The translations under genes and the position numbers were made by a program. DNA of 31,165 bases from IMG/VR virus record IMGVR_UViG_3300008120_000191, positions 1-31,165 of that record; one strand, 5' to 3'. Origin of the DNA: a virus. Under the pieces are notes generated by a model that searched no databases, was not told where the DNA came from, and saw only the letters and a program-made list of their open reading frames with translations. Positions 2,228 to 30,199 of this stretch are shown here, one piece after another; within the stretch, counting starts at the first letter, position 1; each line of letters opens with the position of its first letter.

Positions 2228-2740
2228 ATGCAAACAATAGAAATAACAGGAGCAACAGGGACAGGACCTTACGATGTTTATCTTTGTGATATAACATTAA
2301 CATATTGTTTTTTAATTTCGGGTTCAACAACAATCCCACCAACCGTATCATTCGAATTACCATCGTCATTACCAAACCCTTTTCCTCCACCAGCGAATAT
2401 ATCTTTTACAGGTGCGGATTCAGTCATTGTTAAATTAGTCGATACATCAAGTGGATGTGAAAAATTCATATATTATGGTTGCCCTGTTAGTCCAACACCA
2501 ACACCCACAATGACTCCAACCCCAACTCCTACACCTACTTCAACTTGTAGATGTATTACGGTATCTGCAAGTACAATCACAAATGGTGTGTTTTATTATA
2601 CAGATTGTTTTGGGGTTACATTAGCGCCAATAACCGTAACTCAAAATACGATATCTTATTATTGTGGAACAAATCCAATCATTGTATCAGATTGTTCAGT
2701 TACTTTAGGGTCTCCTTGCGTATCAGGTTCTTGTCCTTAA
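2228..2740 (+). CDS. Two-part virion-like protein with Pro/Thr linker and Cys-rich C-terminus
   Basis: This 170-residue protein has an N-terminal beta-type part (residues 1-87) with motifs such as GTGPYDVYLCD and paired cysteines. A linker of alternating Pro and Thr follows (residues about 88-107), then a Cys-rich C-terminal part (residues about 108-170) ending SCP. It has no signal peptide or membrane segment. Pro/Thr linkers usually separate folded domains and hold them extended. Placed between adhesin genes and a glycosyltransferase cassette, it is probably a fibre or decoration protein, and its Thr-rich linker is a plausible O-glycosylation target. Both roles are inference. Confidence 0.55.
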   Translation: MQTIEITGATGTGPYDVYLCDITLTYCFLISGSTTIPPTVSFELPSSLPNPFPPPANISFTGADSVIVKLVDTSSGCEKFIYYGCPVSPTPTPTMTPTPTPTPTSTCRCITVSASTITNGVFYYTDCFGVTLAPITVTQNTISYYCGTNPIIVSDCSVTLGSPCVSGSCP

Positions 2741-2758
2741 TTTTTATTAATCTATTCA

Positions 2759-2766
2759 TATTTATT
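2759..2766 (+). promoter_or_regulatory. TATTTATT element upstream of the glycosyltransferase cassette
   Basis: A copy of the recurring TATTTAT element (with CA before it) lies 28 bases before ATG 2795, in the only sizeable gap before the four glycosyltransferase genes. It could drive the whole cassette, because the downstream junctions are overlapping or nearly so. No terminator hairpin is visible between 2740 and 2795. Confidence 0.35.
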
Positions 2767-2794
2767 TGATTTTTTTTATTTTTAAAATAAAAAA

Positions 2795-4042
2795 ATGTCA
2801 AAGATTTTTATTCAAATTGCATCTTATAGAGACCCACAATTAATTCCAACAATTAAAAGTATGTTGGAAAACGCAAAGAATCCACAAAATTTAGTTTTAG
2901 GTATTTGTAGACAATATCACCCTGATGATAAATTTGATGATTTATCAGAGTATAAAAATGATAAAAGATTCAGAGTTTTAAATGTTTTATACACAGAATC
3001 AAAAGGTGTTTGTTGGGCAAGAAATCAAGTCCAACAATTATATAAAAACGAAAAATATACATTACAAATTGACTCACACATGAGGTTCGCTCCAAATTGG
3101 GATGTTGAAATGATTAATATGGTTAGAGACCTTCAAAAGAAAGGTTATAAAAAACCATTATTAACAGGATATGTATCATCGTTTGACCCTGACAATGACC
3201 CAAATGGAAGAGTTAATGAACCTTGGAGAATGGTATTTGATAGATTTATCCCTGAAGGAGCGGTTTTCTTTTTACCTGAAACAATTCCAGATTGGAAAAA
3301 TTTAACCGAACCAGTTACGACAAGATTTTATTCCGCTCACTATTGTTTTACTTTGGGACAATTTTCAAAAGAAGTTATTCATAATCCAAATTACTATTTT
3401 CACGGAGAAGAAATCTCAATTGCTGTGAGAGCTTATACTCATGGATATGATTTATTTCATCCTCATAAAGTTTTAATTTGGCACGAGTACACAAGAAAGA
3501 ATCGTACAAAACAGTGGGATGATGACAAGGAGTGGTTTAAAAAGAACGACCAATCACACAAATTAAATAGACAACTATTCGGTATGGATGGTGAGGAAAT
3601 GATTGATTTTGGTGAGTATGGTTTTGGTAAGGAAAGAACTTTAGAAGATTATGAAAAGTATGCAGGAATTAAATTTTCATTAAGAGGAGTTCAACAATAT
3701 ACTTTAGATAAAAATTACCCTCCTAATCCATATAATTACGAATCTCAAGAAGAATGGTTAAAAAGTTTCTCATCAATCTTTAAACATTGTATTGATGTTC
3801 ACTTTAATCAAGTTCCTGAAAAAGATTATGATTTTTGGGTGGTAGCGTTTCATAATGAAAAAGATGAGACAATATATCGAAAAGATGCCGATATAAATGA
3901 AATAAACAGAATGATGACCGACCCTGACGGATATTGTAAAATATGGAGAGAATTTCAAACAACAATTAAACCAAAGTATTGGGTTGTTTGGCCATATAGT
4001 AAATCTAAGGGGTGGTGCGATAGATTAACAGGAAATTTATGA
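2795..4042 (+). CDS. GT60-like polypeptide GlcNAc-transferase
   Basis: This 415-residue protein resembles the GlcNAc family (GT60), whose characterised eukaryotic members move GlcNAc from UDP-GlcNAc onto hydroxyproline of Skp1 or threonine of mucin-type proteins. The N-terminus opens with FIQIASYRDPQL (about residues 5-16). A metal/nucleotide-binding DxH motif follows (LQIDSHMRF, D93 and H95), then the conserved GEE block with THGYDLFHP (G204-E206 onward) and IWHEYTRKN. About 120 C-terminal residues after the catalytic domain are of unknown role. It has no membrane anchor, so it should act in the host cytoplasm. It is the first gene of the cassette; its stop overlaps the next start (ATGA). 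Substrate is inferred; phage virion Thr/Pro tracts are candidates. Confidence 0.75.
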   Translation: MSKIFIQIASYRDPQLIPTIKSMLENAKNPQNLVLGICRQYHPDDKFDDLSEYKNDKRFRVLNVLYTESKGVCWARNQVQQLYKNEKYTLQIDSHMRFAPNWDVEMINMVRDLQKKGYKKPLLTGYVSSFDPDNDPNGRVNEPWRMVFDRFIPEGAVFFLPETIPDWKNLTEPVTTRFYSAHYCFTLGQFSKEVIHNPNYYFHGEEISIAVRAYTHGYDLFHPHKVLIWHEYTRKNRTKQWDDDKEWFKKNDQSHKLNRQLFGMDGEEMIDFGEYGFGKERTLEDYEKYAGIKFSLRGVQQYTLDKNYPPNPYNYESQEEWLKSFSSIFKHCIDVHFNQVPEKDYDFWVVAFHNEKDETIYRKDADINEINRMMTDPDGYCKIWREFQTTIKPKYWVVWPYSKSKGWCDRLTGNL

Positions 4043-4758
4043 AAAAAATATTATTAACAATGTTGTTTTGGACTGATGGTCAAAGTCAGTCTACCAGAGA
4101 AAGAAATGTTAAATTTACGTTTCCAAAAATTATAGATTTAACCGAATTTTTAAATAAAAATAATATTGAATGCGAATTCAAACTATATGATTTTTCACCT
4201 ATTAAAGTAATTTACGATTCAATTCATATACCTTACGAGTTAGGGGATTATAAACGGTCTGAAAAAATAAATCTAATATTAAAACAAAATGAAAATTTTG
4301 ATTTTGTATTTATGTTTGATTGCGATACTTTTTTTAATGAATCTAATTTTTTACAAATATTAAACATTATTAATAATTTAGAAAAGGGGGATATTGTGAC
4401 TTTTGATGCTGCAAAACTAAAAGAAGAGGATTTAGACTTAATATTTAAAACCGGCAACGTTGATGAAAAAACCACAGATTGGTGGTATGCGTATTCAGGT
4501 GAAAAAAAATACGGACCTTTAAACGGAAGAGCGGGTGGATTAGGTGGCGTTTTTATTTGTGATATAGATTTAATATTAGGTAATGGCGGGTTTGATGAAA
4601 AATATGTTGGTTGGGGTGGAGAAGATGGAGATATGTTGGATAGAATAATTAATTCAAAAAAACTTAATAGATTAACTCCGACTAGAGATTTTGCGCCTTA
4701 TCATCTCCCACATTTTGTGGATTTAAATAACAAAAAATATAATAAAAGATTCAAATAA
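4039..4758 (+). CDS. Glycosyltransferase, GT7 C-terminal-domain-like (galactosyltransferase type)
   Basis: This 239-residue enzyme has a GT-A type core. FMFDCDTFF contains the DxD motif (D94, D96) that binds the metal and sugar nucleotide. Residues about 165-198 contain GGLGGVFICD followed by VGWGGEDGDM, matching the galactosyltransferase C-terminal (GT7-C) signature, in which the Gly-Gly-Glu-Asp loop binds the acceptor and helps catalysis. It has no signal peptide or membrane span, so it is probably cytosolic. The start overlaps the previous stop by 4 bases, implying translational coupling, and AGGA lies just upstream. The donor sugar cannot be read from sequence. It may extend a sugar placed by the GT60-like enzyme. 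Confidence 0.7.
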   Translation: MKKILLTMLFWTDGQSQSTRERNVKFTFPKIIDLTEFLNKNNIECEFKLYDFSPIKVIYDSIHIPYELGDYKRSEKINLILKQNENFDFVFMFDCDTFFNESNFLQILNIINNLEKGDIVTFDAAKLKEEDLDLIFKTGNVDEKTTDWWYAYSGEKKYGPLNGRAGGLGGVFICDIDLILGNGGFDEKYVGWGGEDGDMLDRIINSKKLNRLTPTRDFAPYHLPHFVDLNNKKYNKRFK

Positions 4759-4774
4759 TAAAAAAATTAAATTT

Positions 4775-5623
4775 ATGAAAACACTTTTTATAACCTCTAT
4801 TTATTCAAATCTTTGGGGCACTGAGTTTGGCGGAAGACCTAGTAGAGAGTATCATTATAGGATAAGTCTTCAAAACATTTTGAATATGAATCCCACAAAA
4901 TGTGTTTGTTTCACTTCATCAGATGAAATAGAAAATCTAAAAAATGTATTCTATAATAATTTTAAAATGCCTCAAGAACAATTATCATTTGTAATTTTTG
5001 ATTTACACAATACCAAATATTTTGATGAGATTAGAAAATTAAAAAATTTGGAGGAGATGAAAAGAACCGATAGATGTTATGAAATTCAGTATAATAAATT
5101 TATGTGGAAATATAACATAAATGAAATTTATAATTATGATAGGGTTTATTGGATTGACTCTGGATTATCTCATGGAGGTATTTTTCCTGAAAAATACCAA
5201 AAAGATAATAGTCGAGAAGGTCATTATAAAATAAGTTTATTTAGTCAAAAATATTTAAACCATTTAAATCAATTAACTTCAGATAAGATTCTTTTATTAT
5301 CTAAAAATAATGAAGGACAATTTTTTTGGTCGCAACAAATACCCCAACATTATTATAAAGAATTTGATAGGTCTAAACATATTATCGGAGGTCTTTTTGG
5401 GGGAACACCAAAAAAATTTTTAGAATTTTGTGATAAGTTTGAAACTTTATTAATACAATTATTAAGAAATGAAAATCAATTATATATGGAAGAACTAATA
5501 ATGTCTTGTCTATATTTTAATGAAAAAAATAATTTTACTTTATTGGAATTCGATGATTGGTATAAAAGAGAGCACCATAATGACCCTAATATAAAATATT
5601 TTTATAATATGTTTGAATTATGA
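4775..5623 (+). CDS. YibB/HtrL-like glycosyltransferase-type protein
   Basis: This 282-residue protein resembles the HtrL/YibB family, found in surface-polysaccharide loci and in phages and giant viruses. Its key block is RVYWIDSGLSHGG (D128 in the WIDSG motif), preceded by the YNKFMWKYN segment typical of the family. The second half contains IIGGLFGGTPKKF, also typical. No biochemical reaction is firmly established for the family, so glycosyltransferase is a fold-level inference. It sits 16 bases after the GT7-like gene, and its stop overlaps the next gene (ATGA). No membrane segment is seen. Confidence 0.65.
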   Translation: MKTLFITSIYSNLWGTEFGGRPSREYHYRISLQNILNMNPTKCVCFTSSDEIENLKNVFYNNFKMPQEQLSFVIFDLHNTKYFDEIRKLKNLEEMKRTDRCYEIQYNKFMWKYNINEIYNYDRVYWIDSGLSHGGIFPEKYQKDNSREGHYKISLFSQKYLNHLNQLTSDKILLLSKNNEGQFFWSQQIPQHYYKEFDRSKHIIGGLFGGTPKKFLEFCDKFETLLIQLLRNENQLYMEELIMSCLYFNEKNNFTLLEFDDWYKREHHNDPNIKYFYNMFEL

Positions 5624-7290
5624 TTACATTAGTTACGGGTCTTTGGGATATAAAAAGAGATAGTCTTTCTGAAGGGTGGTCTCGTTCATTCGAGCATTAC
5701 AAACAAAAATTTTCAGAACTACTTAAAGTAGAAAATAATATGATTATATTCGGTGACCCCGAGTTAGAGTCATTTGTTTGGGAACATAGAGGTAAAGAAA
5801 ATACACAGTTTATTGTAAGATATCAATCTTGGTTTAAGACCAACGAATATTATGAATTAATTCAAAAGATTAGAAACAATCCAGAATGGTTTAATCAAGT
5901 AGGTTGGTTAACAAATTCCACTCAAGCAAAACTTGAGATGTATAACCCACTTGTAATGTCAAAGATGTTTTTATTACATGATGCGAAAATACTTGATAGG
6001 TTTAATTCCGAATATCTATTTTGGATTGATGCTGGTCTTACAAACACTGTTCACCCTGGTTATTTTACTCACGACAAAGTTTTAGAGAAGTTGCCAAAAT
6101 ACGTTAATAACTTTAACTTTGTTTGTTTTCCTTATGAAGCAAATACCGAAATTCATGGGTTCAAATTTGATAAGATGAATGACTATTCAGGTAAGAAAGT
6201 TGATAAGGTTGCTAGAGGAGGATTTTTTGGTGGTAGAAAAGAATCAATAACCGAAATTAATAATCTATATTACAATTTATTAGTTGAGACATTAAACAAT
6301 GGTTTAATGGGTACTGAAGAAAGTTTATTTACAATTCTATTATACAAATACCCAAACACATTTAGTTATTCTGAAATAGAAGGTAATGGTCTTATGGGTA
6401 AATTTTTTGAGGATTTAAAAAACGATTCTGTGGTCGTCAAATCGGAAAAACCAATTAGACAAGAGATTAAAAATATTGATACGAGTAAGGTTGGTTTATA
6501 TGTTATTACATTTAATTCACCAAATCAGTTTGAGACATTAATTAAATCAATGTTAGAATATGACTCTGATTTTATAACAAAAACAAAAAAGTTTTTACTT
6601 GACAACTCAACAGATTTATCAACAACTCCAAGATATAAACAATTATGTGAGCAATATGGTTTTGAACACATAAAGAAAGATAATTTGGGAATTTGTGGTG
6701 GAAGGCAATTTGTGTCTGACCATTTTAATGAATCTGATTTAGATATAATGGCGTGGAGCGAAGATGATATGTTTTTTCAAAACAAACCTAATGAAACTTG
6801 TAGAAATGGGTTTAATAGATACACATCAAATTTATATCAAAAATGTTTAGATATTTTAAAGAAAGAAAATTTTGATTTTTTAAAAATAAACTTCACGGAA
6901 TTCTACGGAGATAATTCAACTTGTTGGCCGTGGTATAATGTTCCGCAAGATTTTAGACAAAAACATTGGCCAAATAAACCAAATCTTCCTGTGCAAGGTT
7001 TAGACCCCGATTCTCCTTTGTCGAAATATAAACATATTAAATCTTATAAAGGTTTACCTTATGTTAGTGGTGACATTTATTATTGTAATTGGACTCATTT
7101 TATAACAAAAGAAGGTAATAGAAAAATGTTTCAAGAAACAAAATGGGATAGACCATTTGAACAAACTTGGATGAGTCATATATATCAAGAAACAATTAAA
7201 AGTAAAATTAACCCTGGTTTATTACTATTAACACCAATTGAGCATAACCGTTTTGAACACTATGACGGTAAATTAAGAAAAGAAAGTTAA
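5620..7290 (+). CDS. Two-domain YibB/HtrL-like and GT2-like protein
   Basis: This 556-residue protein joins two enzyme-type domains. Residues 1 to about 280 are a second YibB/HtrL-like domain: FWIDAGLTNTVHPGYF has the same motif as the gene before (D137), and GGFFGGRKESI matches the later Gly block. From about residue 290 a new domain starts with VGLYVITFNSPNQFETL, a typical beginning of a GT2-type (GT-A) domain. It has an acidic cluster SEDDMFF (E381-D383) in the place of the DxD-type motif. The first domain is a paralogue of the preceding gene, so the fusion probably followed a duplication. The start overlaps the previous stop. Acceptor and donors are unknown. Confidence 0.65.
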   Translation: MITLVTGLWDIKRDSLSEGWSRSFEHYKQKFSELLKVENNMIIFGDPELESFVWEHRGKENTQFIVRYQSWFKTNEYYELIQKIRNNPEWFNQVGWLTNSTQAKLEMYNPLVMSKMFLLHDAKILDRFNSEYLFWIDAGLTNTVHPGYFTHDKVLEKLPKYVNNFNFVCFPYEANTEIHGFKFDKMNDYSGKKVDKVARGGFFGGRKESITEINNLYYNLLVETLNNGLMGTEESLFTILLYKYPNTFSYSEIEGNGLMGKFFEDLKNDSVVVKSEKPIRQEIKNIDTSKVGLYVITFNSPNQFETLIKSMLEYDSDFITKTKKFLLDNSTDLSTTPRYKQLCEQYGFEHIKKDNLGICGGRQFVSDHFNESDLDIMAWSEDDMFFQNKPNETCRNGFNRYTSNLYQKCLDILKKENFDFLKINFTEFYGDNSTCWPWYNVPQDFRQKHWPNKPNLPVQGLDPDSPLSKYKHIKSYKGLPYVSGDIYYCNWTHFITKEGNRKMFQETKWDRPFEQTWMSHIYQETIKSKINPGLLLLTPIEHNRFEHYDGKLRKES

Positions 7291-7314
7291 TCTATTTATT
7301 TTACATTATTAAAG

Positions 7315-7322
7315 TATTTATA
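7315..7322 (+). promoter_or_regulatory. TATTTATA element upstream of the Thr-rich baseplate-like gene
   Basis: The recurring TATTTATA element ends 14 bases before ATG 7337, in the 46-base gap after the glycosyltransferase cassette. A second, weaker copy (TATTTATT) lies at 7293-7300. The spacing would give a short leader. No terminator hairpin is visible in the gap. Confidence 0.4.
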
Positions 7323-7336
7323 TGATAAAAAGATAG

Positions 7337-8080
7337 ATGGATTTTTTTATCAAAAAAAATAGTACTCTCCCACTTTTAAAATTACAGGTCGTAAAGAATG
7401 GTCGTAACGATTATGATAATTTTATGAAAACCATAGAATTATCAGCAATCTTCTTTTCAATGGTCGATATTGAAACGGGAGTTGCTAAGATAAGTTCAAG
7501 ACCCGCAGGATTTGTAGAAAAAACTTTTATTGACCCAAACGCAGAACCTGAATATTATATTTACTATCAATTTACAAATAGAGATACAAATAAAGTAGGT
7601 AGATATGAAGGTCAGTTTATGTTAAGAAATGATGACGGAGTTTTAATATTACCTATTAGAGAAAAACTTTTTATTAATATTCAAGAGTCATTTATCGCGG
7701 ATGATTTACCATATGAGAATTGTTATACATCAGAATTTCCTTGTTGCGTTAACGGACCTTATACAACAACTACAACAACGACTCCGTGTCCAAGTTGTCC
7801 AACTTGTCCTGAACCAACTCAAACTCCTATAACAACTACTACAACAACAATTATCCCTATAACAACTACTACGACAACAATAAATATAACTGAAACGCCA
7901 ACTCAAACTCCTACAGTAACTCCAACTCCTACAATAACACCAAGTCCGACACCGGCACCTCAAAACGATTTGATGTTTATGTTTATTCCTGAAGGTGATA
8001 TAGAATTTGTATTAATACCTGACGGTGATTTAGGAGTTTTTGATTTACCAATTGATGATTTAGGTTTTGAATTTTTATAA
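7337..8080 (+). CDS. Baseplate-like virion protein with mucin-like Thr/Pro tract
   Basis: This 247-residue protein has three parts. Residues 1 to about 140 form a beta-type domain (LPLLKLQVVKNG, then GRYEGQFMLRND, then LPIREKLFINI). The pattern resembles N-terminal domains of phage baseplate proteins of the BppU kind, a weak match by eye. Residues about 143-209 are a long low-complexity tract with runs of six or seven Thr, a CPSCPTCP element and alternating Pro-Thr. The last 35 residues are acidic and hydrophobic, with repeated Asp-Gly/Asp-Leu units. The Thr tract is the longest in the window and, beside the glycosyltransferases, is the best candidate for O-glycosylation. The role is inferred. 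Confidence 0.6.
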   Translation: MDFFIKKNSTLPLLKLQVVKNGRNDYDNFMKTIELSAIFFSMVDIETGVAKISSRPAGFVEKTFIDPNAEPEYYIYYQFTNRDTNKVGRYEGQFMLRNDDGVLILPIREKLFINIQESFIADDLPYENCYTSEFPCCVNGPYTTTTTTTPCPSCPTCPEPTQTPITTTTTTIIPITTTTTTINITETPTQTPTVTPTPTITPSPTPAPQNDLMFMFIPEGDIEFVLIPDGDLGVFDLPIDDLGFEFL

Positions 8081-10569: not shown

Positions 10570-12810
10570 ATGGCAAATATAAAGATATCGGCGTTACCAA
10601 GTGTCCAACCAAGTGGTTATACGAATGACGATTTATTGGTAATAGTAAATTATGACGTTTCAAGTGGGACAACAAAGAATACACCTTTAAGTGGATTAAC
10701 TTCTTATATATTAAGTGGAGTAACATTTCCAACAGATTATCTTCCGTTAAGTGGTGGGACAGTTACAGGTGATACAATATTTAATCAAGGTTTAACCGCA
10801 ACAACAATATCCGCATCAACATACTTAGGACTACCTTTAGATGTTTATGTTACGGGGGGAACTTATTCTGGAGGAACAATAACGTTTACAAATAATAGTG
10901 GTGGAACATTTCCTGTATCAGGAATAACTTCAAATGAGGGAAATCAATGGTTAATACCAACTGGAGATACCGTTACCGTTAATTCAAATTATCAATATTT
11001 CATATATGGTGATATAATAGTTCAGGGTACTTTAATACTCGAAACTAATAGTCAGTTAGTAGTTGTTAATGGAGATGTTATAAATAGTGGAGGAACAATC
11101 ACAAATAACGGAACAATATCCGATATTGAAATTCCTTTATTTGATACGAAAGTTACTGGTGGAACGTATTCTGCCGGAACAATAACATTTACAAATAATA
11201 GTGGGGGAACTTTCACGGTTACAGGAATTACCGCAACTGGCGGAGGAACATTTACTGGAGGAACGGTTAGTGGAGATACAATTTTTAGTAGTGGATTAAC
11301 CGCAACTACGATATCCGCATCAACATACTTAGGTTTGCCTTTAGATATATATGTGACCGGAGGTACATATAGTGCTAGTTCATCTACAATTATATTTACA
11401 AATAATTCCGGTGGTACTTTTGATGTCACGGGAGTGACTGCTTCGGGTGGAGGAACATTTACAGGAGGAACTGTAACTGGGGAAACAATATTTCAAAGTG
11501 GGATAACCGCAACAACAATTTCAGCAACATCTTTAACAGTTGATTATATTGATTTTAATATAACCGCAAATACCACTCATCAGGAAGGAAGAATTCATTG
11601 GAATGATGCTCTAAAAACTTTAGAGGTTGATACAGAAAATGCCGGTGTGCAACTAAAAGTGGGACATGAATTAGTTGTGAGAGTTAACAATCAGACTGGT
11701 TCACCAATTCCAAAAGGAAGTGCGGTTTATATAAACGGAGAACAAGGACAAAGACCCACAATAACTTTGGCAAGTTTTACGGCAGATAGTACATCCGCAG
11801 CAGTTGTTGGTCTAACAATGACTCAAATAAATAACAATAATAATGGTTATGTAATTGTTGGGGGTGTATTAGAAGGTCTTGACACCTCTTCTTATACCGC
11901 AGGAACGCCATTGTATCTTTATACAGGAGGAACCTTAACTTCAACAAAGCCACAAGCCCCTGACCATGATGTTAGAATTGGTAAGGTAGTTGTTTCAAAC
12001 GCAACAACAGGTTCTATATATGTTTCCATTCAAAATGGTTATGAATTAGATGAATTACATGATGCTAGAATTACAAATAAATCTGTTGGAGATTTATTAA
12101 CAGTTAGTGGGTATAACGGATATGATTTATGGGTTAATTCAAAAACATTAAACGGTTCATATACAATAACCGGAGATACTACGATAGGTCAAGGATTAAC
12201 CGCGACAACAATATCGGGAGGAACAATATATGGTAGTGGTTTGGGTTTAATAAATATTCCTATTTCTGGTGTTACCAATCTACAAACATCATTAAATAAT
12301 AAATTTGATATAACAGGTGGAACTATTAATGGAAATTTAACTGTAACCGGAAATACAAATTTACAAACATTTACTGCGGGAACAGGAACTATTAACGGTA
12401 ATTTAACTGTAACAGGAAATACTATTTTAACATCCGTTACAGGAAATAGTTTAAATATAACCGGAAATACAATAATATCTTCTTTTACAGGAGGTTCGGG
12501 AACAATTAACGGTAATTTAAATGTAACTGGAAATACCTCAATGACAGGAACATTAAATGTTACGGGTAATACAAACGTGAGAGCGTTTACAGGTACTACG
12601 GGATATTTTTCTGGAACAGGTCAGAACGTGTTAACAGTTATTGGTTCAGGTAATAGCACATCGTCACCAATATTTTCGGTTATAGGAAATGGAACTAGCG
12701 CGGAATTATTTAGCTCCGTCATTAAACACAACAACAAGAACAAGTCTAACCGCAGGAACTACCACGGTTTATTCAATACCGACAAGTGCCTATACAGGAG
12801 CGTTTTTTGA
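10570..12810 (+). CDS. Long repetitive tail-fibre protein, frame broken near its C-terminus
   Basis: The 746-residue frame begins ANIKISALPS, a common start for phage fibre proteins. Repeats rich in TGGT and TATTIS motifs follow (units such as GLTATTISASTYLGLPLD occur twice, with a partial third copy). A compact beta domain spans about residues 337-500 (from HQEGRIHWND; contains GSPIPKGSAVYINGEQG), then shorter INGNLTVTGNT repeats. The last roughly 30 residues (from about V717) turn Lys/Asn/Arg-rich and do not fit a fibre. The frame at 12689 continues with a normal fibre tip, so the natural product probably reads through a +1 shift near 12710-12725. The cause could be an assembly indel, a true mutation or programmed frameshifting. 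Confidence 0.75.
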   Translation: MANIKISALPSVQPSGYTNDDLLVIVNYDVSSGTTKNTPLSGLTSYILSGVTFPTDYLPLSGGTVTGDTIFNQGLTATTISASTYLGLPLDVYVTGGTYSGGTITFTNNSGGTFPVSGITSNEGNQWLIPTGDTVTVNSNYQYFIYGDIIVQGTLILETNSQLVVVNGDVINSGGTITNNGTISDIEIPLFDTKVTGGTYSAGTITFTNNSGGTFTVTGITATGGGTFTGGTVSGDTIFSSGLTATTISASTYLGLPLDIYVTGGTYSASSSTIIFTNNSGGTFDVTGVTASGGGTFTGGTVTGETIFQSGITATTISATSLTVDYIDFNITANTTHQEGRIHWNDALKTLEVDTENAGVQLKVGHELVVRVNNQTGSPIPKGSAVYINGEQGQRPTITLASFTADSTSAAVVGLTMTQINNNNNGYVIVGGVLEGLDTSSYTAGTPLYLYTGGTLTSTKPQAPDHDVRIGKVVVSNATTGSIYVSIQNGYELDELHDARITNKSVGDLLTVSGYNGYDLWVNSKTLNGSYTITGDTTIGQGLTATTISGGTIYGSGLGLINIPISGVTNLQTSLNNKFDITGGTINGNLTVTGNTNLQTFTAGTGTINGNLTVTGNTILTSVTGNSLNITGNTIISSFTGGSGTINGNLNVTGNTSMTGTLNVTGNTNVRAFTGTTGYFSGTGQNVLTVIGSGNSTSSPIFSVIGNGTSAELFSSVIKHNNKNKSNRRNYHGLFNTDKCLYRSVF
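10783..11540 (+). repeat. Coding tandem repeats in the fibre gene
   Basis: Two long units (about 10789-10927 and 11293-11440), a half unit (about 11152-11238) and a short partial copy (about 11490-11535) encode the same peptide pattern: TATTISA, STYLGLPLD, VTGGTYS, ITFTNNSGGTF. They are diverged copies, not identical, as expected for a fibre shaft that grows or shrinks by recombination. Boundaries are approximate. Confidence 0.6.
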
Positions 12811-13030
12811 TTATACTTTAATTAGTACGGGAAGCACAGGTGCTAGAGCGGGAACGATAATGTCAATATGGAGTGGGTCAAGCTCTCAGTTTACTGAGGT
12901 TTCAACTAACGATATTGGTGTTACAACTGGAGTTACTTTCACAGTTGCGGTTTCAGGAAATAATGCGGTGTTAAGTAGTTCGGCAACAACAACGGGTTGG
13001 ACATTAAAAACAATAGTTAGAAGTATATGA
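12689..13030 (+). CDS. Fibre tip domain in a shifted frame (probable C-terminus of the 10570 protein)
   Basis: This 113-residue frame starts at an ATG inside the fibre gene and extends it in the +1 frame. From about residue 10 (PSLNTTTRTSL) it reads as a fibre tip: YSIPTSAYTGAFFDYTL, RAGTIMSIWSG, VSGNNAVLSSS and TLKTIVRSI. This beta-rich ending is typical of phage fibre C-termini. The first nine residues (MELARNYLA) overlap the upstream frame and look non-native, so I favour one fused product. Separate translation from ATG 12689, which has AGGAA just before it, is the alternative. The stop overlaps the first LamG gene (ATGA). Confidence 0.65.
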   Translation: MELARNYLAPSLNTTTRTSLTAGTTTVYSIPTSAYTGAFFDYTLISTGSTGARAGTIMSIWSGSSSQFTEVSTNDIGVTTGVTFTVAVSGNNAVLSSSATTTGWTLKTIVRSI

Positions 13031-13713
13031 GTTTTAGTTACGGACAAAAAATAGTAACAAATGGATTGGTTTTATATCTAGATGCCGCAAATATTAGGTC
13101 ATACCCAAAAACCGGAAATACTTGGTATGATTTAAGTATTGGTACTAATACTGGTACTTTAAATAGTGGTTCAACATTTAATACCTCAAATGGTGGTAGT
13201 ATTGTTTTTGATGGTACAGATGATAATGTAAATTGTGGAAACAATTCAATATTAGATGTTGGAAATAACATTACGGTAAACGCTTGGATTTTTTTACCGA
13301 GTACTGGTGCGACAACAGGTTATAGACCGATAGTATCTAAAGTTGTTAGTGGAGCCACTGTTGGTTGGGAAATGGGTGTTAGTATTGGAAAATTAAGATG
13401 TGTCTTCAGGCCGACCTCAAATATTATAGACCTTACTGGACCTGATTTATCTATAGGTGTTTGGCAAATGTGTACATTTAGTTATGATAACTTAACCACT
13501 AAGTTATATCTAAATGGGGTTTTAAGAACCTCAACATCAAGTGGTGGTCCTGTTATATTAGATTCATCACAACCATTTCAAATAGCGACAAGAGGAATCG
13601 GAGGAAATACGTTTTTAGGTAGGATATCACAAGTCTCGATGTATAATCGAGCCTTATCTTCATCAGAAATTTTACAAAACTATAATTCGACAAAAGCGAG
13701 ATTTCAATTATGA
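13027..13713 (+). CDS. LamG/concanavalin A-like lectin-fold virion protein, copy 1
   Basis: This 228-residue protein is essentially one LamG-like jelly-roll domain. It has the opening KIVTNGLVLYLDAAN, the SIVFDGTDDNVNCG strand, the NITVNAWIFLPS strand, a KLYLNGVLRTS turn and the ending QVSMYNRALSSSEILQNYN. In this fold a family of phage and bacterial surface proteins binds carbohydrates, so a host-glycan-binding fibre or decoration role is inferred. No signal peptide is seen. Both ends overlap neighbours by ATGA, so it is translated in a coupled chain. It is the closest paralogue of the gene at 13710, sharing a 31-bp identical stretch with it. Confidence 0.7.
   Translation: MSFSYGQKIVTNGLVLYLDAANIRSYPKTGNTWYDLSIGTNTGTLNSGSTFNTSNGGSIVFDGTDDNVNCGNNSILDVGNNITVNAWIFLPSTGATTGYRPIVSKVVSGATVGWEMGVSIGKLRCVFRPTSNIIDLTGPDLSIGVWQMCTFSYDNLTTKLYLNGVLRTSTSSGGPVILDSSQPFQIATRGIGGNTFLGRISQVSMYNRALSSSEILQNYNSTKARFQL
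13105..13135 (+). repeat. 31-bp direct repeat, copy 1
   Basis: These 31 bases are identical to 13791-13821, 686 bases downstream. They encode the same peptide (PKTGNTWYDL) in both LamG paralogues. Perfect identity amid otherwise diverged copies suggests recent duplication, gene conversion or strong constraint. Confidence 0.85.
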
Positions 13714-14468
13714 GCGGAAGTATTGTAAGTTCAAAAATAGTTACAAATGGATTAGTATTATACTTAGACGCGGTTAATACTCTTTCGTATCCAAAAACCG
13801 GAAATACTTGGTATGATTTAACAACCAATGGGTTTATTGGTCAACTAAACAACACCCCCTTATTTGTAACAACAGGTGGAACTTCTTTTTCTTTTGACGG
13901 TACCAATGAAAATGTTAATTTAGGTAATCTGTCATCACTTTCTTTTACTAGTGGGACATTTTCCGTTGAGATTTGGGTTAATGTTCCAAGTAGTTGGTCT
14001 GGACCTGCAAACATAAATCAATATCCTAATTTAATTAGTAAAGGAGCTAACGCTGGATGGGACACAAATGGGTGGTCATTACATTGTTTTAGAGGGGTGT
14101 TAAGTTCTGACCCCAAAGTTATTGGGTTAGGGATTAAAAATGGGTCTAATCTTGTTACATCATCCACACAAATAACATTAGAAAATACAGATTTAGATAG
14201 ATTCATATGTGTATCAGTAACTATGGATTTAACCTCTATTAAAATTTTTAAAAACGGAATACTTAATAAAACGGTAACATCTTTAACTTCGCCATTAGGA
14301 AACCCTTTAGTAGGTCCTGCGGAAAATTCATCAAATGTTGTTATCGCAAGCGGTCCATCGTCACAATATTTTCCTGGTAAGATATCTAACATTAAATTAT
14401 ATGATAGAAAATTAAGTGATTCTGAAGTTTTACAAAATTATAACTCAACTAAAGTAAGATATATTTAA
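13710..14468 (+). CDS. LamG/concanavalin A-like lectin-fold virion protein, copy 2
   Basis: This 252-residue tandem paralogue of the preceding gene has the same landmarks: KIVTNGLVLYLDAVN, PKTGNTWYDL, FSFDGTNENVNLG, FSVEIWVNVPSS, IKIFKNGILNK and NIKLYDRKLSDSEVLQNYN. It has a longer central loop (around SKGANAGWDTNGWSLHC) that may alter ligand contacts. It overlaps the previous stop by 4 bases. Glycan binding is inferred from the fold; no catalytic residues are visible. Confidence 0.7.
   Translation: MSGSIVSSKIVTNGLVLYLDAVNTLSYPKTGNTWYDLTTNGFIGQLNNTPLFVTTGGTSFSFDGTNENVNLGNLSSLSFTSGTFSVEIWVNVPSSWSGPANINQYPNLISKGANAGWDTNGWSLHCFRGVLSSDPKVIGLGIKNGSNLVTSSTQITLENTDLDRFICVSVTMDLTSIKIFKNGILNKTVTSLTSPLGNPLVGPAENSSNVVIASGPSSQYFPGKISNIKLYDRKLSDSEVLQNYNSTKVRYI
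13791..13821 (+). repeat. 31-bp direct repeat, copy 2
   Basis: Identical to 13105-13135 in the paralogous lectin gene. Recombination between the copies would delete 686 bases (not a multiple of three, but the copies lie in different frames of the window, so the join would stay in frame) and fuse the two proteins. Confidence 0.85.
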
Positions 14469-14473
14469 TTAAT

Positions 14474-14737
14474 ATGGAAACACAATTATACGAGAATAGA
14501 AAATTTATGATATTTAATGTATCTGAATTAGAATTAATAGATTTTACACAAGTATGTGAAACTTCAATTGACACGGTTAGAAAAAGTGTTGATGGTGATA
14601 AAACATTTGTTAAATGGGACACCGAAGGAATTCCTTCATCAGTGGATAGTTTAACAACTAAAGAAGGTCCTTATACTTATGAAGAAATTTTAAACATACT
14701 ATCAACTTCAGAATGGACTGATGTAACAATAATATGA
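14474..14737 (+). CDS. Small hypothetical protein between lectin genes, 87 residues
   Basis: I do not recognise a named family. The protein is acidic, with FMIFNVSELELIDFTQV near the start, DGDKTFVKWD in the middle and a C-terminal helix-like GPYTYEEILNIL segment. There is no membrane span or signal. It starts 5 bases after the second lectin gene and its stop overlaps the third (ATGA), so it is co-expressed with them. Its position suggests a chaperone or small partner for the lectin proteins, but nothing in the sequence shows that. Confidence 0.55.
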   Translation: METQLYENRKFMIFNVSELELIDFTQVCETSIDTVRKSVDGDKTFVKWDTEGIPSSVDSLTTKEGPYTYEEILNILSTSEWTDVTII

Positions 14738-15477
14738 GTACAGTAGGAAATTGGCAAGGTCCAAAAATAGTTAAAGAGGAGTTAGTTTTATATTTAGATG
14801 CGGGTTCTCCCAATTCTTATTTTGATAAAACAAGCACAACTTGGAGAGATATTAGTGGATATGGTAACAACGCCACATTACTAAATGGGGTAACGTATAG
14901 TTCAAATAATGGCGGTGTTTTTATTTTTGACGGTACTGATGATGCGGCCAGAGTCTCACCAAACGCAATCTATAGAAATTTTACAAATGCAACTTTTAGT
15001 ATATGGTGTACATTCTCAACACTATCTACTAATAGTATCTATACTTTAATAAATAATGGAATCCAATCAACTGATAGTCATTTTTGGTTATATTATGATA
15101 ATAGGACTTCATTACCATCTAATGTTAATAGAATAGGTTTTGAGTGGGGTAATGGCACTAATAGAACTGGTTTACTATCAACATCAACTTTAATTCCTGT
15201 TTTAAATAATTGGTATAATATTGTGGCAACTTTTGATAACGGAACTTCAATAATTTATGTTAATGGAGTTGTGTTTGGTAGTGGTACAACATTAGTAACA
15301 ACAATAGCCGGAGTTGCCGCGGCTCAAATATATACAGGAGGTTATTTTTCCGCCGGTCCTTCGGGAATACAATTATCTTGGCCGGGAAATTTAAATCAAC
15401 ATTTAATATATAGAAAAACATTATCTCAATCAGAAGTTTTACAAAACTACAACGTAACAAAATATAGATATTTATAA
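14734..15477 (+). CDS. LamG/concanavalin A-like lectin-fold virion protein, copy 3
   Basis: This is the third LamG-type paralogue, 247 residues and the most diverged of the set. The landmarks are KIVKEELVLYLDAGS, TTWRDISGYGN, VFIFDGTDDAARV, FSIWCTFS, SIIYVNGVVFGS and QHLIYRKTLSQSEVLQNYN. The conserved ending (SEVLQNYN followed by TK and an aromatic residue) is shared by all three, so they descend from one ancestor. It is the last gene of the ATGA-coupled run; a 50-base gap with a promoter-like element follows. Carbohydrate binding is inferred. Confidence 0.7.
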   Translation: MSTVGNWQGPKIVKEELVLYLDAGSPNSYFDKTSTTWRDISGYGNNATLLNGVTYSSNNGGVFIFDGTDDAARVSPNAIYRNFTNATFSIWCTFSTLSTNSIYTLINNGIQSTDSHFWLYYDNRTSLPSNVNRIGFEWGNGTNRTGLLSTSTLIPVLNNWYNIVATFDNGTSIIYVNGVVFGSGTTLVTTIAGVAAAQIYTGGYFSAGPSGIQLSWPGNLNQHLIYRKTLSQSEVLQNYNVTKYRYL

Positions 15478-26833: not shown

Positions 26834-29800
26834 ATGGCATCTAACAGTAAAGTATTCGTATCTCCAGGAGTTTATACTTCTGAAGTTGATTTAAGTTTTG
26901 TAGCACAAAGTGTTGGTGTTACGACTTTAGGAATCGTTGGTGAAACCTTAAAAGGTCCGGCATTTGAGCCTATCTTCATTAGAAATTATGATGAGTTTTC
27001 GTCATACTTTGGAGACACTTCACCTGAAAAATTTATAAACACACAAATCCCTAAATATGAGTCTGCATATATTGCTAAGGCTTATTTACAACAATCAAAT
27101 CAATTGTTTGTTACAAGAGTTTTAGGACTATCAGGATATGATGCGGGTCCTTCTTGGTCAATATCAACGAAAGCTAATGTTGACCCGTCAACTGTTACAT
27201 TATGTTATAGTTCAGTAACAGATGTCAATATTTGTAGCGGACAAACGAATCCTTGTGACCCTTGTTGTGTTGATTATTTGGTTTTACCAATATCGGTTGA
27301 TTTTACAGGATGTACAAATACTCCTGATTCAATTGTTTTTAGTTCCACAATACCAGCAGAAATTTTAGCGAAATTAAATGTTCCTTATGAAGAGTTTAAT
27401 GGTTCTCAATCCAGTTTATCTGAAAATATGAAAACTCAGATATTCGATATTGTGAACGATGACGCATTTGGAACTACATTACCAAAATTAGAAGATACTT
27501 CAATTTACTATTACGGTACAATTTCAGGAGACACTTATGAATCGTTAAAAACGACATTTACCGCAGAAACTAATGTATTTAATGTTGATGATTTAAATTC
27601 TGATACGGCCAATTTTTCAGACCCAAATAACGACCCTTGGTATTATGCTTTATTTGATAATATTGGTGGAGGCGCTTATATGGGATATTCATTTTGGACT
27701 GTTGTTACTGGTTTAACTGAAATAATTACCGCAACTACTACAACAACTAGTACAAGTACAACAACAACCACAACTAATCCTTGTAACCCGACAACAACAA
27801 CTACAACTTCAACAACAACAGTAAAACCTGTTAAGTGTTATACTGGAACTTTAATCGGACAAATTTTTGTTTATAAAGGAACTGCGTTTTTAGATTATGA
27901 TGATTTAGTAATTGCAACTTTACGTTCAAGAGGTATTGCAACATATTCAACTGATGACGGTCCTGTTTACGAAGTTTCAGGTTTAACTCAAGTTAGTATG
28001 GATTGTAGTGGTGGTTATTCCGCGGTAACTAAAAATCCAGTCGCAACTTTTGGCGTTAATGTAACAAATAAAGATAATCAAAATTTCTTCTTTGAAACTT
28101 CTTTCTCAAATTCAGATTCACAATATCTTTCAAAAGTATTTGGGGTTACCAACTTTGGAAAACCTAGAAGTGAAGCTCCAATATTTGTAGAAGAAAATTT
28201 CCAAGCGTTATTAATATATGGTTGGAGAAAGGGATATATTAGAGGTTTAAGTTGTGATTTGACAGCATTACCTAACGCAAGACAAGGGGTCGACCCAACA
28301 TCAATTGCTTGGTATTTAGAAAGATATCAATCACCAGTTTCTCCTTGGGTTGTTTCTGAACTAAGAGGTAATAAAGTTTTTAGATTATTTAAATTTATGA
28401 CAATTGCCGATGGGGACGCTGCTAACATAGAGGTTAAAATTTCTATAGCAAACATATCATTTAACAACGGTACTTTTGATATTATAGTTAGAGATTTCTT
28501 TGATAGTGACTCAGCTCCTGTTGTTTTAGAAAAATTCACAAATTGTAATATGAACCCTAATGATAACGCATTTATTGCTAAAAAAATAGGTACATTAGAT
28601 GGTGAATATCAATTAAACTCAAAATACATTATGGTAGAAATTAACGAGGATGCTCCTGTTGATTCATTACCTTGTGGTTTTGAGGGGTATCAATTTAGAG
28701 AATATGCGGGAGTTAGACCACCATTCCCAATTTATAAAACCAAATATGATTTCCCAGGTGAAGTTGTTTACAACCCTCCTTTTGGAACGTCTTCAGGAAA
28801 TGACAACGCTACAAGGTCTCCTGGTGACAATGTTAGAAGAACATATTTAGGTATTTCAGATACAGTAGGTTATGATGTGGATTTCTATTCGTATAAAGGT
28901 AAACAATTACCGTTAAATATTTGTAATGATATTACCGGTGAAGATTGGTTTTATAAGACAAGAGGTTTCCATATGGATAAAAACGCTAGTAGTATTACAA
29001 TAGGAGATAATTTTACAACAAGTGGAACTCCAGCGTTTTTTGTTGGTTCTGCAGAATTTACATCAGACCCACAATCAGAAAGTAATCCTTACTATAGATT
29101 ATACGCTCGTAAATTTTCTTTATTATGTCATGGAGGTTTTGATGGATGGGATATATATAGAGAATCTAGAACAAATACAGATAGATATGTATTAGGTCAA
29201 ATAGGTTATAGAAACGGTGCTTGCGCATCTCCAAAATATCCTACAGCAACTGGTTGGGGTGCTTTCAAACAAATAACGGTTGGTGATAACTCCGTTGATT
29301 GGGCTAATACCGATTATTACGCATATAAATTAGGACAAAGAACATTTGCAAATCCTGAAGCGGTTAATATTAACGTATTCGTAACTCCAGGTATTGATTA
29401 TGTTAATCATTCAAATCTTGTGGAAGATGCGGTTGATATGATTGAAAACGATAGAGCGGATTCATTATATATCTGTACAACTCCTGATTATAATATGTTT
29501 GTACCTACAGTTGGTGACCAATTAGATTTAATTTACCCACAAGAAGCGGTTGATAATTTGGATAATATTGGTTTAGATTCAAACTACACTGCAACATACT
29601 ATCCTTGGGTATTAACAAGAGATACTGTTAATAACACTCAAGTTTACATTCCGGCAACCGCTGAGGTAACTAGAAATTTAGCGTTAACTGACAATATTGC
29701 ATTCCCTTGGTTCGCAGCTGCGGGTTATACAAGAGGTTTAGTAAACGGTATTAAGGCTCGTAAAAAGTTAACTCAAGAAGATAGAGACACCTTGTATAAT

Positions 29801-30199
29801 GGTAGAATTAACCCAATCGCAACCTTCTCTGATGTTGGTACGGTAATTTGGGGTAACAAAACTTTACAAATTAGACAGTCGGCTCTTGATAGAATCAATG
29901 TAAGAAGATTGTTGTTACAAGCTCGTAAATTGATTTCGGCAGTATCAGTTAGATTATTGTTTGAACAAAACGACCAAAAAGTAAGACAAGATTTCTTAGA
30001 CGCTGTTAACCCAATATTAGACGCTATTAGAAGAGATAGAGGTTTGTATGATTTCCGTGTAACGGTTTCTTCTGACCCAGCTGATTTGGATAGAAATCAA
30101 ATGACGGGTAAGATTTATATCAAACCTACAAAATCGTTAGAATTTATCGACATTACGTTCTACATTACTCCGACCGGAGCGTCTTTCGAGAATATCTAA
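26834..30199 (+). CDS. Contractile tail sheath protein (T4 gp18-like), enlarged, with mucin-like Thr tract
   Basis: The sheath polymerises around the tail tube and contracts to drive DNA entry. The N-terminus has the classic VSPGVYTSEVD (residues 9-19), then TTLGIVGETLKGPAFEP and a YLQQSNQLFVTRVLG block. The C-terminus carries the sheath core: DRINVRRLLLQARKLISAVS, RLLFEQND, VNPILDAIRRDRGLYDFRV and IDITFYITPTG. At 1121 residues it is far longer than T4 gp18 (659). The excess lies in the middle, which includes Cys-rich elements (NPCDPCC, about residue 145) and residues 300-329, which are mostly Thr in two runs around NPCNP. The Thr-rich insert is probably surface-exposed and a possible glycosylation site. 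A terminator follows. Confidence 0.9.
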   Translation: MASNSKVFVSPGVYTSEVDLSFVAQSVGVTTLGIVGETLKGPAFEPIFIRNYDEFSSYFGDTSPEKFINTQIPKYESAYIAKAYLQQSNQLFVTRVLGLSGYDAGPSWSISTKANVDPSTVTLCYSSVTDVNICSGQTNPCDPCCVDYLVLPISVDFTGCTNTPDSIVFSSTIPAEILAKLNVPYEEFNGSQSSLSENMKTQIFDIVNDDAFGTTLPKLEDTSIYYYGTISGDTYESLKTTFTAETNVFNVDDLNSDTANFSDPNNDPWYYALFDNIGGGAYMGYSFWTVVTGLTEIITATTTTTSTSTTTTTTNPCNPTTTTTTSTTTVKPVKCYTGTLIGQIFVYKGTAFLDYDDLVIATLRSRGIATYSTDDGPVYEVSGLTQVSMDCSGGYSAVTKNPVATFGVNVTNKDNQNFFFETSFSNSDSQYLSKVFGVTNFGKPRSEAPIFVEENFQALLIYGWRKGYIRGLSCDLTALPNARQGVDPTSIAWYLERYQSPVSPWVVSELRGNKVFRLFKFMTIADGDAANIEVKISIANISFNNGTFDIIVRDFFDSDSAPVVLEKFTNCNMNPNDNAFIAKKIGTLDGEYQLNSKYIMVEINEDAPVDSLPCGFEGYQFREYAGVRPPFPIYKTKYDFPGEVVYNPPFGTSSGNDNATRSPGDNVRRTYLGISDTVGYDVDFYSYKGKQLPLNICNDITGEDWFYKTRGFHMDKNASSITIGDNFTTSGTPAFFVGSAEFTSDPQSESNPYYRLYARKFSLLCHGGFDGWDIYRESRTNTDRYVLGQIGYRNGACASPKYPTATGWGAFKQITVGDNSVDWANTDYYAYKLGQRTFANPEAVNINVFVTPGIDYVNHSNLVEDAVDMIENDRADSLYICTTPDYNMFVPTVGDQLDLIYPQEAVDNLDNIGLDSNYTATYYPWVLTRDTVNNTQVYIPATAEVTRNLALTDNIAFPWFAAAGYTRGLVNGIKARKKLTQEDRDTLYNGRINPIATFSDVGTVIWGNKTLQIRQSALDRINVRRLLLQARKLISAVSVRLLFEQNDQKVRQDFLDAVNPILDAIRRDRGLYDFRVTVSSDPADLDRNQMTGKIYIKPTKSLEFIDITFYITPTGASFENI

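Follow-up and report, generated by a model that had tools for sequence, protein, structure and literature searches.

Four glycosyltransferase-type genes stand between threonine-rich proteins in the 31,165-base stretch of viral DNA analyzed here (the window; IMG/VR record IMGVR_UViG_3300008120_000191), which comes from a large contractile-tailed phage, and they raise the question of what these enzymes modify: the proteins of the phage's own particle, its DNA, or the surface of its host. A 203-kb record (IMGVR_UViG_3300031857_024884) has these genes too, with proteins 100% identical. The following features of the window bear on the question.

2228..2740, + strand: PT-tract protein (tract at residues 88-107), predicted acceptor, immediately 5' of the GT60 gene; homologs (cluster c9) hold the same place in many loci
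2795..4042, + strand: GT60-family (PF11397) glycosyltransferase, predicted polypeptide-Thr alpha-GlcNAc-transferase, from profile, invariant residues, and model fold
4039..4758, + strand: GT7C-type glycosyltransferase (PF02709 Glyco_transf_7C, 6.3e-9, 35.8 bits), predicted to add the second sugar; variable part of the cassette
4775..5623, + strand: YibB-like glycosyltransferase-type protein, assigned by BLAST clustering with the YibB half of 5620-7290; without a Pfam match
5620..7290, + strand: fusion of an HtrL_YibB domain to a second GT-A domain, the conserved final cassette gene (Pfam, BLAST clusters, model)
7337..8080, + strand: conserved protein of cluster c2, predicted acceptor; residues 143-209 form a C-terminal linker of poly-Thr and TPT
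26834..30199, + strand: contractile tail sheath (Pfam Phage_sheath), possible acceptor; carries a poly-Thr insert (residues about 300-331)

An earlier, sequence-only reading had described four consecutive glycosyltransferase-type genes from 2795 to 7290, and this run has exactly those coordinates; Pfam, BLAST clustering, and a structural model agree on it. The genes at 2795-4042 and 4039-4758 overlap by 4 bp, as do those at 4775-5623 and 5620-7290. The Thr/Pro and poly-Thr tracts likewise lie at the residues it had given, in the 2228-2740 product (residues 88-107, SPTPTPTMTPTPTPTPTSTC), in the 7337-8080 product (residues 143-209, TTTTTTTPCPSC...TPTPTITPSPTPAPQ), and in the sheath (residues about 300-331, ATTTTTSTSTTTTTTNPCNPTTTTTTSTTTVK). 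The T/P density of each of the three proteins was matched by none of 2,000 composition-preserving shuffles, and Thr and Pro codons are mixed within the tracts, which are therefore not simple DNA microsatellites. The inclusion of the sheath as a third tract protein holds for the window and only in part beyond it: roughly half of the sheaths in the clade carry the poly-Thr insert, and it is missing from those of many GT60 phages. Across the family, TPTxTPT looks like the main acceptor motif, with pure poly-Thr as a minority form.

Elsewhere in the window, two tandem paralogs encoding glycine-rich proteins (324-1244 and 1256-2212) lie 5' of the cassette, and three related proteins (13027-15477; cluster c7) form tandem paralogs 3' of it; both sets resemble variable adsorption-gene regions. 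At 10570-13030, a 746-aa ORF and an overlapping 113-aa ORF correspond to a single 855-aa ORF in the otherwise near-identical loci L003 and L004, which means that either a frameshift or an assembly error lies near 12.7 kb of the window.

What the first cassette enzyme does can be approached from its family and fold. The 2795-4042 product matched the Pfam profile of GT60 GlcNAc-transferases, PF11397, with E=1.7e-70 (238.7 bits against a cut-off of 21), as the sequence-only reading had anticipated, and the cut-off was exceeded in all 23 clade and isolate records. D93-S-H95 and H230 are invariant across 12 GT60 members, down to 25% identity. The DxH motif is the GT27/GT60 variant that stands in place of DxD, and polypeptides are the substrates of GT60/GT27 enzymes (PMC7185993); by homology, DxH and the C-terminal His (H230) probably act as metal ligands in the phage enzyme. 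Its AlphaFold model (pLDDT 88.7) has a GT-A fold related to polypeptide GalNAc-transferases (ppGalNAc-Ts): the best 29 solved-structure matches are all ppGalNAc-Ts, the top PDB folds being GalNAc-T2/T4 (E about 4e-10, TMq about 0.5). Fold comparison alone made this connection: starting from GT60, neither phmmer nor profile searches matched any sequence in the PDB. Together, modeled fold and motif point to a polypeptide Thr O-glycosyltransferase, for which family precedent would make GlcNAc the donor sugar.

The genes that follow are organized as a cassette with fixed ends and a changing middle. Behind GT60, 46 of the 49 non-redundant loci have a series of genes that closes with a YibB-type gene, and all 216 cassette genes in these 46 loci lie on one strand, falling into 62 clusters. 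Different enzymes take the slot of the 4039-4758 gene in relatives, whose cassettes by Pfam include GT25, a GT10 fucosyltransferase, GT34, FkbM and CmcI-type methyltransferases, a carbamoyltransferase, and nucleotidyltransferase/HAD proteins, along with weak GT2 and GT4 matches below the Pfam cut-offs. XacN1 and RAS14 each encode a carbamoyltransferase-type protein immediately 3' of GT60 (L083:13409-15706 and L084:13518-15818), which suggests a carbamoylated glycan. A likely membrane segment, judged by hydropathy peak, was found in just one of 262 cassette proteins, GT60 included, and this single candidate is all that the cassettes offer as a membrane protein, an indirect sign consistent with glycan assembly on protein without a lipid carrier or an oligosaccharyltransferase. 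The near-absence of membrane segments would suit stepwise glycan building on a cytoplasmic protein and makes a surface glycan that is lipid-linked and exported less likely.

The conserved final gene of the cassette encodes a composite protein. Pfam places HtrL_YibB over residues 2-253 of the 5620-7290 product, and its AlphaFold model (pLDDT 84.3) has two GT-A-like halves that resemble the LH3, LARGE1, and chondroitin polymerase folds, an analogy that suggests a bifunctional transferase. A profile of the YibB-type glycosyltransferase gave chance matches only against the PDB, and an NCBIfam scan returned YibB again, under its cut-off, and nothing further. Among isolates, full-length homologs of the fusion occur in exactly those phages with GT60, namely XacN1, CM1, and RAS14; the window's polymerase has no match in these three.

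If the enzyme acts on Thr-rich linkers, enzyme and linkers should travel together, and the sequence-only reading had named their independent occurrence across related phages as grounds for giving it up. We found them coupled at the level of gene, genome, and collection, in related and also in distant phages. Defining a T/P tract as at least 13 of 20 residues, we detected one in the gene immediately 5' of GT60 at 36 of 48 loci, compared with 54 of 643 other genes. BLAST groups the upstream genes of those 36 loci into 24 clusters, which are not all unrelated, since a short motif ahead of the tract is common to some of the proteins. At least one tract gene is present at 47 of 49 loci. Genome-wide, a DNA pattern for TPTxTPT occurs in all 23 GT60-encoding records (12-141 occurrences each) and in none of 18 GT60-less ones, and a reversed control pattern is near zero in every record of both kinds. 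Candidate acceptors with dense Thr/Pro tracts are encoded in the same genome as GT60: XacN1 has 15 tract ORFs (terminal repeats excluded), and three other genomes have 12, 11, and 4. Isolates make up 12 of the 18 controls and include RaK2-like phages and SCTP-2, which PMC5852040 places in one clade with XacN1; with several controls drawn from XacN1's own clade, the comparison is a fair one. DNA-polymerase relatives of the window were considered as GT60-less controls and dropped, as most of those with enough upstream sequence have the island and every large contig checked has GT60; relatives of XacN1 were taken instead.

The coupling is also visible when viral contigs are chosen by their linkers. 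PF11397 was found in 12 of 50 contigs picked solely for (PT)4 and in none of 50 picked for (PE)4 (Fisher p=2e-4, a test that, like our other P values, ignores shared descent), and the (PT)4 set is richer in very long contigs, so that contig size may account for part of the contrast. A poly-Thr DNA pattern (T8) proved a poor probe, as other reading frames match it (2/50). Because the statistics ignore descent, the case for independent coupling comes from two phages and from the comparison around XacN1. In G021 (loci L575/L572), polymerase and sheath are about 63% and 60% identical to those of the window, and GT60 is a different one, 38% identical and lying more than 50 kb from c2-polymerase rather than upstream of it; three of its four tract proteins are encoded no more than 3 kb from this GT60. 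This is a natural replacement. At L440, a divergent GT60 (31%) is encoded 1.5 kb from a fibronectin-III (fn3) protein with 14 consecutive Thr. At L440:838-4866, this GT60-like gene has the gene for the fn3 protein on one side and one for a 2OG-Fe(II) oxygenase on the other.

XacN1, a cultured Xanthomonas phage, brings in evidence from virions. Virion glycoproteins were reported for it and phage glycosyltransferases suggested as their cause, in a text that, as far as available, gives no protein identity for them (PMC5852040). XacN1 has the same GT60 and YibB-glycosyltransferase core as the window, its GT60 gene being ORF334. Its tract proteins ORF369, ORF370, and ORF372 are encoded after the genes for sheath and sheath completion; of these, ORF370 has a match to a PHROG for structural proteins of the virion. 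The XacN1 glycoproteins are like the system proposed for the window in having this core at hand, and unlike our account, the paper's available portion makes no link to the GT60 family, TPT tracts, or ORF330-333 (PMC5852040). We offer an account of these glycoproteins that is checkable on public proteomics data (PXD008065); Arg occurs within the XacN1 tracts.

Some genomes depart from the pattern. Four TPT-rich contigs, all fragments of 51-100 kb, are without PF11397: G033, G042, G030, and G048 (loci L104, L123, L099, and L134), with motif counts of 137, 77, 35, and 32, respectively. They may have another initiating enzyme or be incomplete; at three GT60-less contig loci, no glycosyltransferase was found beside the tracts among eight neighbors. 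Conversely, the contig of a further divergent GT60 (L424) shows no tract in its 14 kb. YibB was not found in the divergent GT60 phages, so the invariant pair is GT60 and tracts, not the whole cassette. GT60 genes also exist in bacteria, those of a Saprospiraceae bin (L606) and of Jiulongibacter sediminis (L612; 55% identical) being among the closest. Both of these adjoin a TP-tract gene and also a YibB fusion, and the GT60 gene of a Desulfobacterales bin (L661) adjoins a TP-tract gene; the phage module may derive from such bacteria, or the three may be prophage or mis-binned phage. Burkholderia-type GT60 genes are mostly without an adjacent tract.

Four other explanations can be set against this evidence. 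The tracts might be ordinary flexible linkers and the cassette might alter the polysaccharide on the host's surface, perhaps as a block to superinfection, with the two being neighbors only through a variable appendage region. (PT)n tracts do occur without GT60 in 38 of 50 viral contigs, and cassettes of glycosyltransferases and methyltransferases look like polysaccharide loci; however, the association extends genome-wide, beyond neighboring genes, (PE)4 linkers lack it, the cassettes have no flippase, polymerase, or membrane anchor, and GT60 has the fold and DxH motif of polypeptide transferases. We regard this explanation as unlikely. Less probable still, at a very low level, is a Skp1-type route in which GT60 would place GlcNAc on hydroxyproline after hydroxylation of the TP-tract prolines. 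The family does include the hydroxyproline-requiring Skp1 Gnt1 (PMC6939170), and besides the oxygenase gene next to the divergent GT60 of L440, G004 and G061 encode 2OG-Fe(II) oxygenases; yet PF13640 oxygenases appear in only 2 of 16 GT60-encoding records scanned and in none of XacN1, RAS14, CM1, and G001 (a long contig of the window's phage), and Pro-free poly-Thr tracts also occur. The sequence-only reading had cited both precedents, Thr in trypanosome mucins and hydroxyproline in Skp1; as prolyl-hydroxylase-type oxygenases do not accompany GT60 in most of the records scanned, Thr is the likelier acceptor.

Glycosylation of phage DNA bases, a hypermodification for which other phages encode glycosyltransferases, would agree with how common DNA-modifying glycosyltransferases are in large phages, and in a paper on moraphages the DNA role is the first named for phage glycosyltransferases (PMC12619734). 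It would leave the association with tracts without explanation, though. The cassette adjoins structural and tract genes, its Pfam scans contain no hydroxymethyl-nucleotide enzymes, and GT60/GT27 substrates are polypeptides (PMC7185993). We give this explanation hardly any weight, and no more to one in which the glycosylated targets are phage-encoded yet outside the virion, such as secreted or intracellular factors. Most tract proteins are indeed without annotated function, but the sheath, a PHROG match to virion structural proteins, and neighbors of the XacN1 sheath genes are among them, and glycoproteins were reported in the proteomic analysis of XacN1 (PMC5852040).

The sequence-only reading as a whole is supported, and we consider it probable that these phages encode mucin-type O-glycosylation of Thr in their own virion proteins, beginning with alpha-GlcNAc (the sugar by inference) and elaborated by a fast-changing cassette. 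In such a system, a soluble GT60 would act on particle proteins during their synthesis, in the cytoplasm of the infected cell and without a lipid carrier, joining an N-acetylhexosamine (GlcNAc, if the family is a guide) by an alpha linkage to Thr of their TPTxTPT and poly-Thr linkers. The GT7-like enzyme, the YibB-like enzyme, and the fusion of YibB to a second GT-A domain would extend and cap the glycan, a part that GT10, GT25, GT34, and methyl- and carbamoyltransferases could play in relatives. Rapid turnover between the two conserved ends of the cassette would then place different glycans on related phages. We infer the activity, the sugar, the acceptor residues, the location on the particle, and the role of the system; as to purpose, we conjecture that glycans shield extended linkers, change adsorption, or add stability.

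On balance, though with less assurance, we favor a wider view, in which a widespread and previously undescribed class of phages has mucin-like particles: a GT60 initiator that can occupy different genomic positions and lineages would co-evolve with TPTxTPT proteins, up to 15 per genome among the genomes analyzed, and a fast-swapping cassette, with its 62 clusters of genes over 46 loci, would diversify the glycan. Swapped particle glycans of this kind would have parallels in the mucin coats of trypanosomes or in the diversity of bacterial O-antigens. The coupling of GT60 to tracts provides a specific, testable rule, that GT60 implies TPTxTPT proteins, and three cultured phages as well as many large aquatic ones fall under it. 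The rule suggests that protein O-glycosylation of a type known chiefly from protists and animals takes place on virus particles inside the cytoplasm of bacteria, and it offers glycoengineering a source of soluble, lipid-free predicted Thr glycosyltransferases together with natural acceptors.

Few cases of phage structural glycosylation are documented. A literature search that excluded most subscription papers and all preprints found nothing joining GT60 and phage, and nothing relevant on mucin-like phage proteins. The chlorovirus PBCV-1 glycosylates its capsid with several virus-encoded glycan-assembly enzymes. Virus-encoded, multi-enzyme glycan assembly would be shared with the window's phage, where it is predicted; PBCV-1 differs in being a eukaryotic algal virus and in its target protein. 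Closest in enzyme family are Trypanosoma cruzi TcOGNT and Skp1 Gnt1, which share with the phage system PF11397, DxH, the C-terminal His, and similar poly-Thr or Thr/Pro tracts (PMC3769586, PMC7185993, PMC9472816, PMC6939170); the homologous T. cruzi activity has KPPTTTTTTTTKPP as its acceptor (PMC3769586). Unlike them, the phage GT60, whose activity is assigned by homology, is predicted to be soluble, is accompanied mostly by TPTxTPT tracts, and comes with a variable glycosyltransferase cassette. The GT27 ppGalNAc-transferases that initiate animal mucin glycosylation are the closest solved folds and share the DxH motif, whereas identity in structural alignments is about 11-16% and the sequence family is GT60. 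Among phages, PMC12619734 counts glycosyltransferases among the core genes of moraphages and reports, after Freeman et al. 2023, that in mycobacteriophages the subunits of capsid and tail tube bear glycans at their C-terminal ends. The shared idea is that of phage-encoded glycosyltransferases with phage structural proteins as targets, decorated there and predicted here; the available portion of that paper does not mention GT60 or mucin-like tracts (PMC12619734). Virion glycosylation is already known from mycobacteriophages, and the variant described here is GT60 together with mucin-like tracts.
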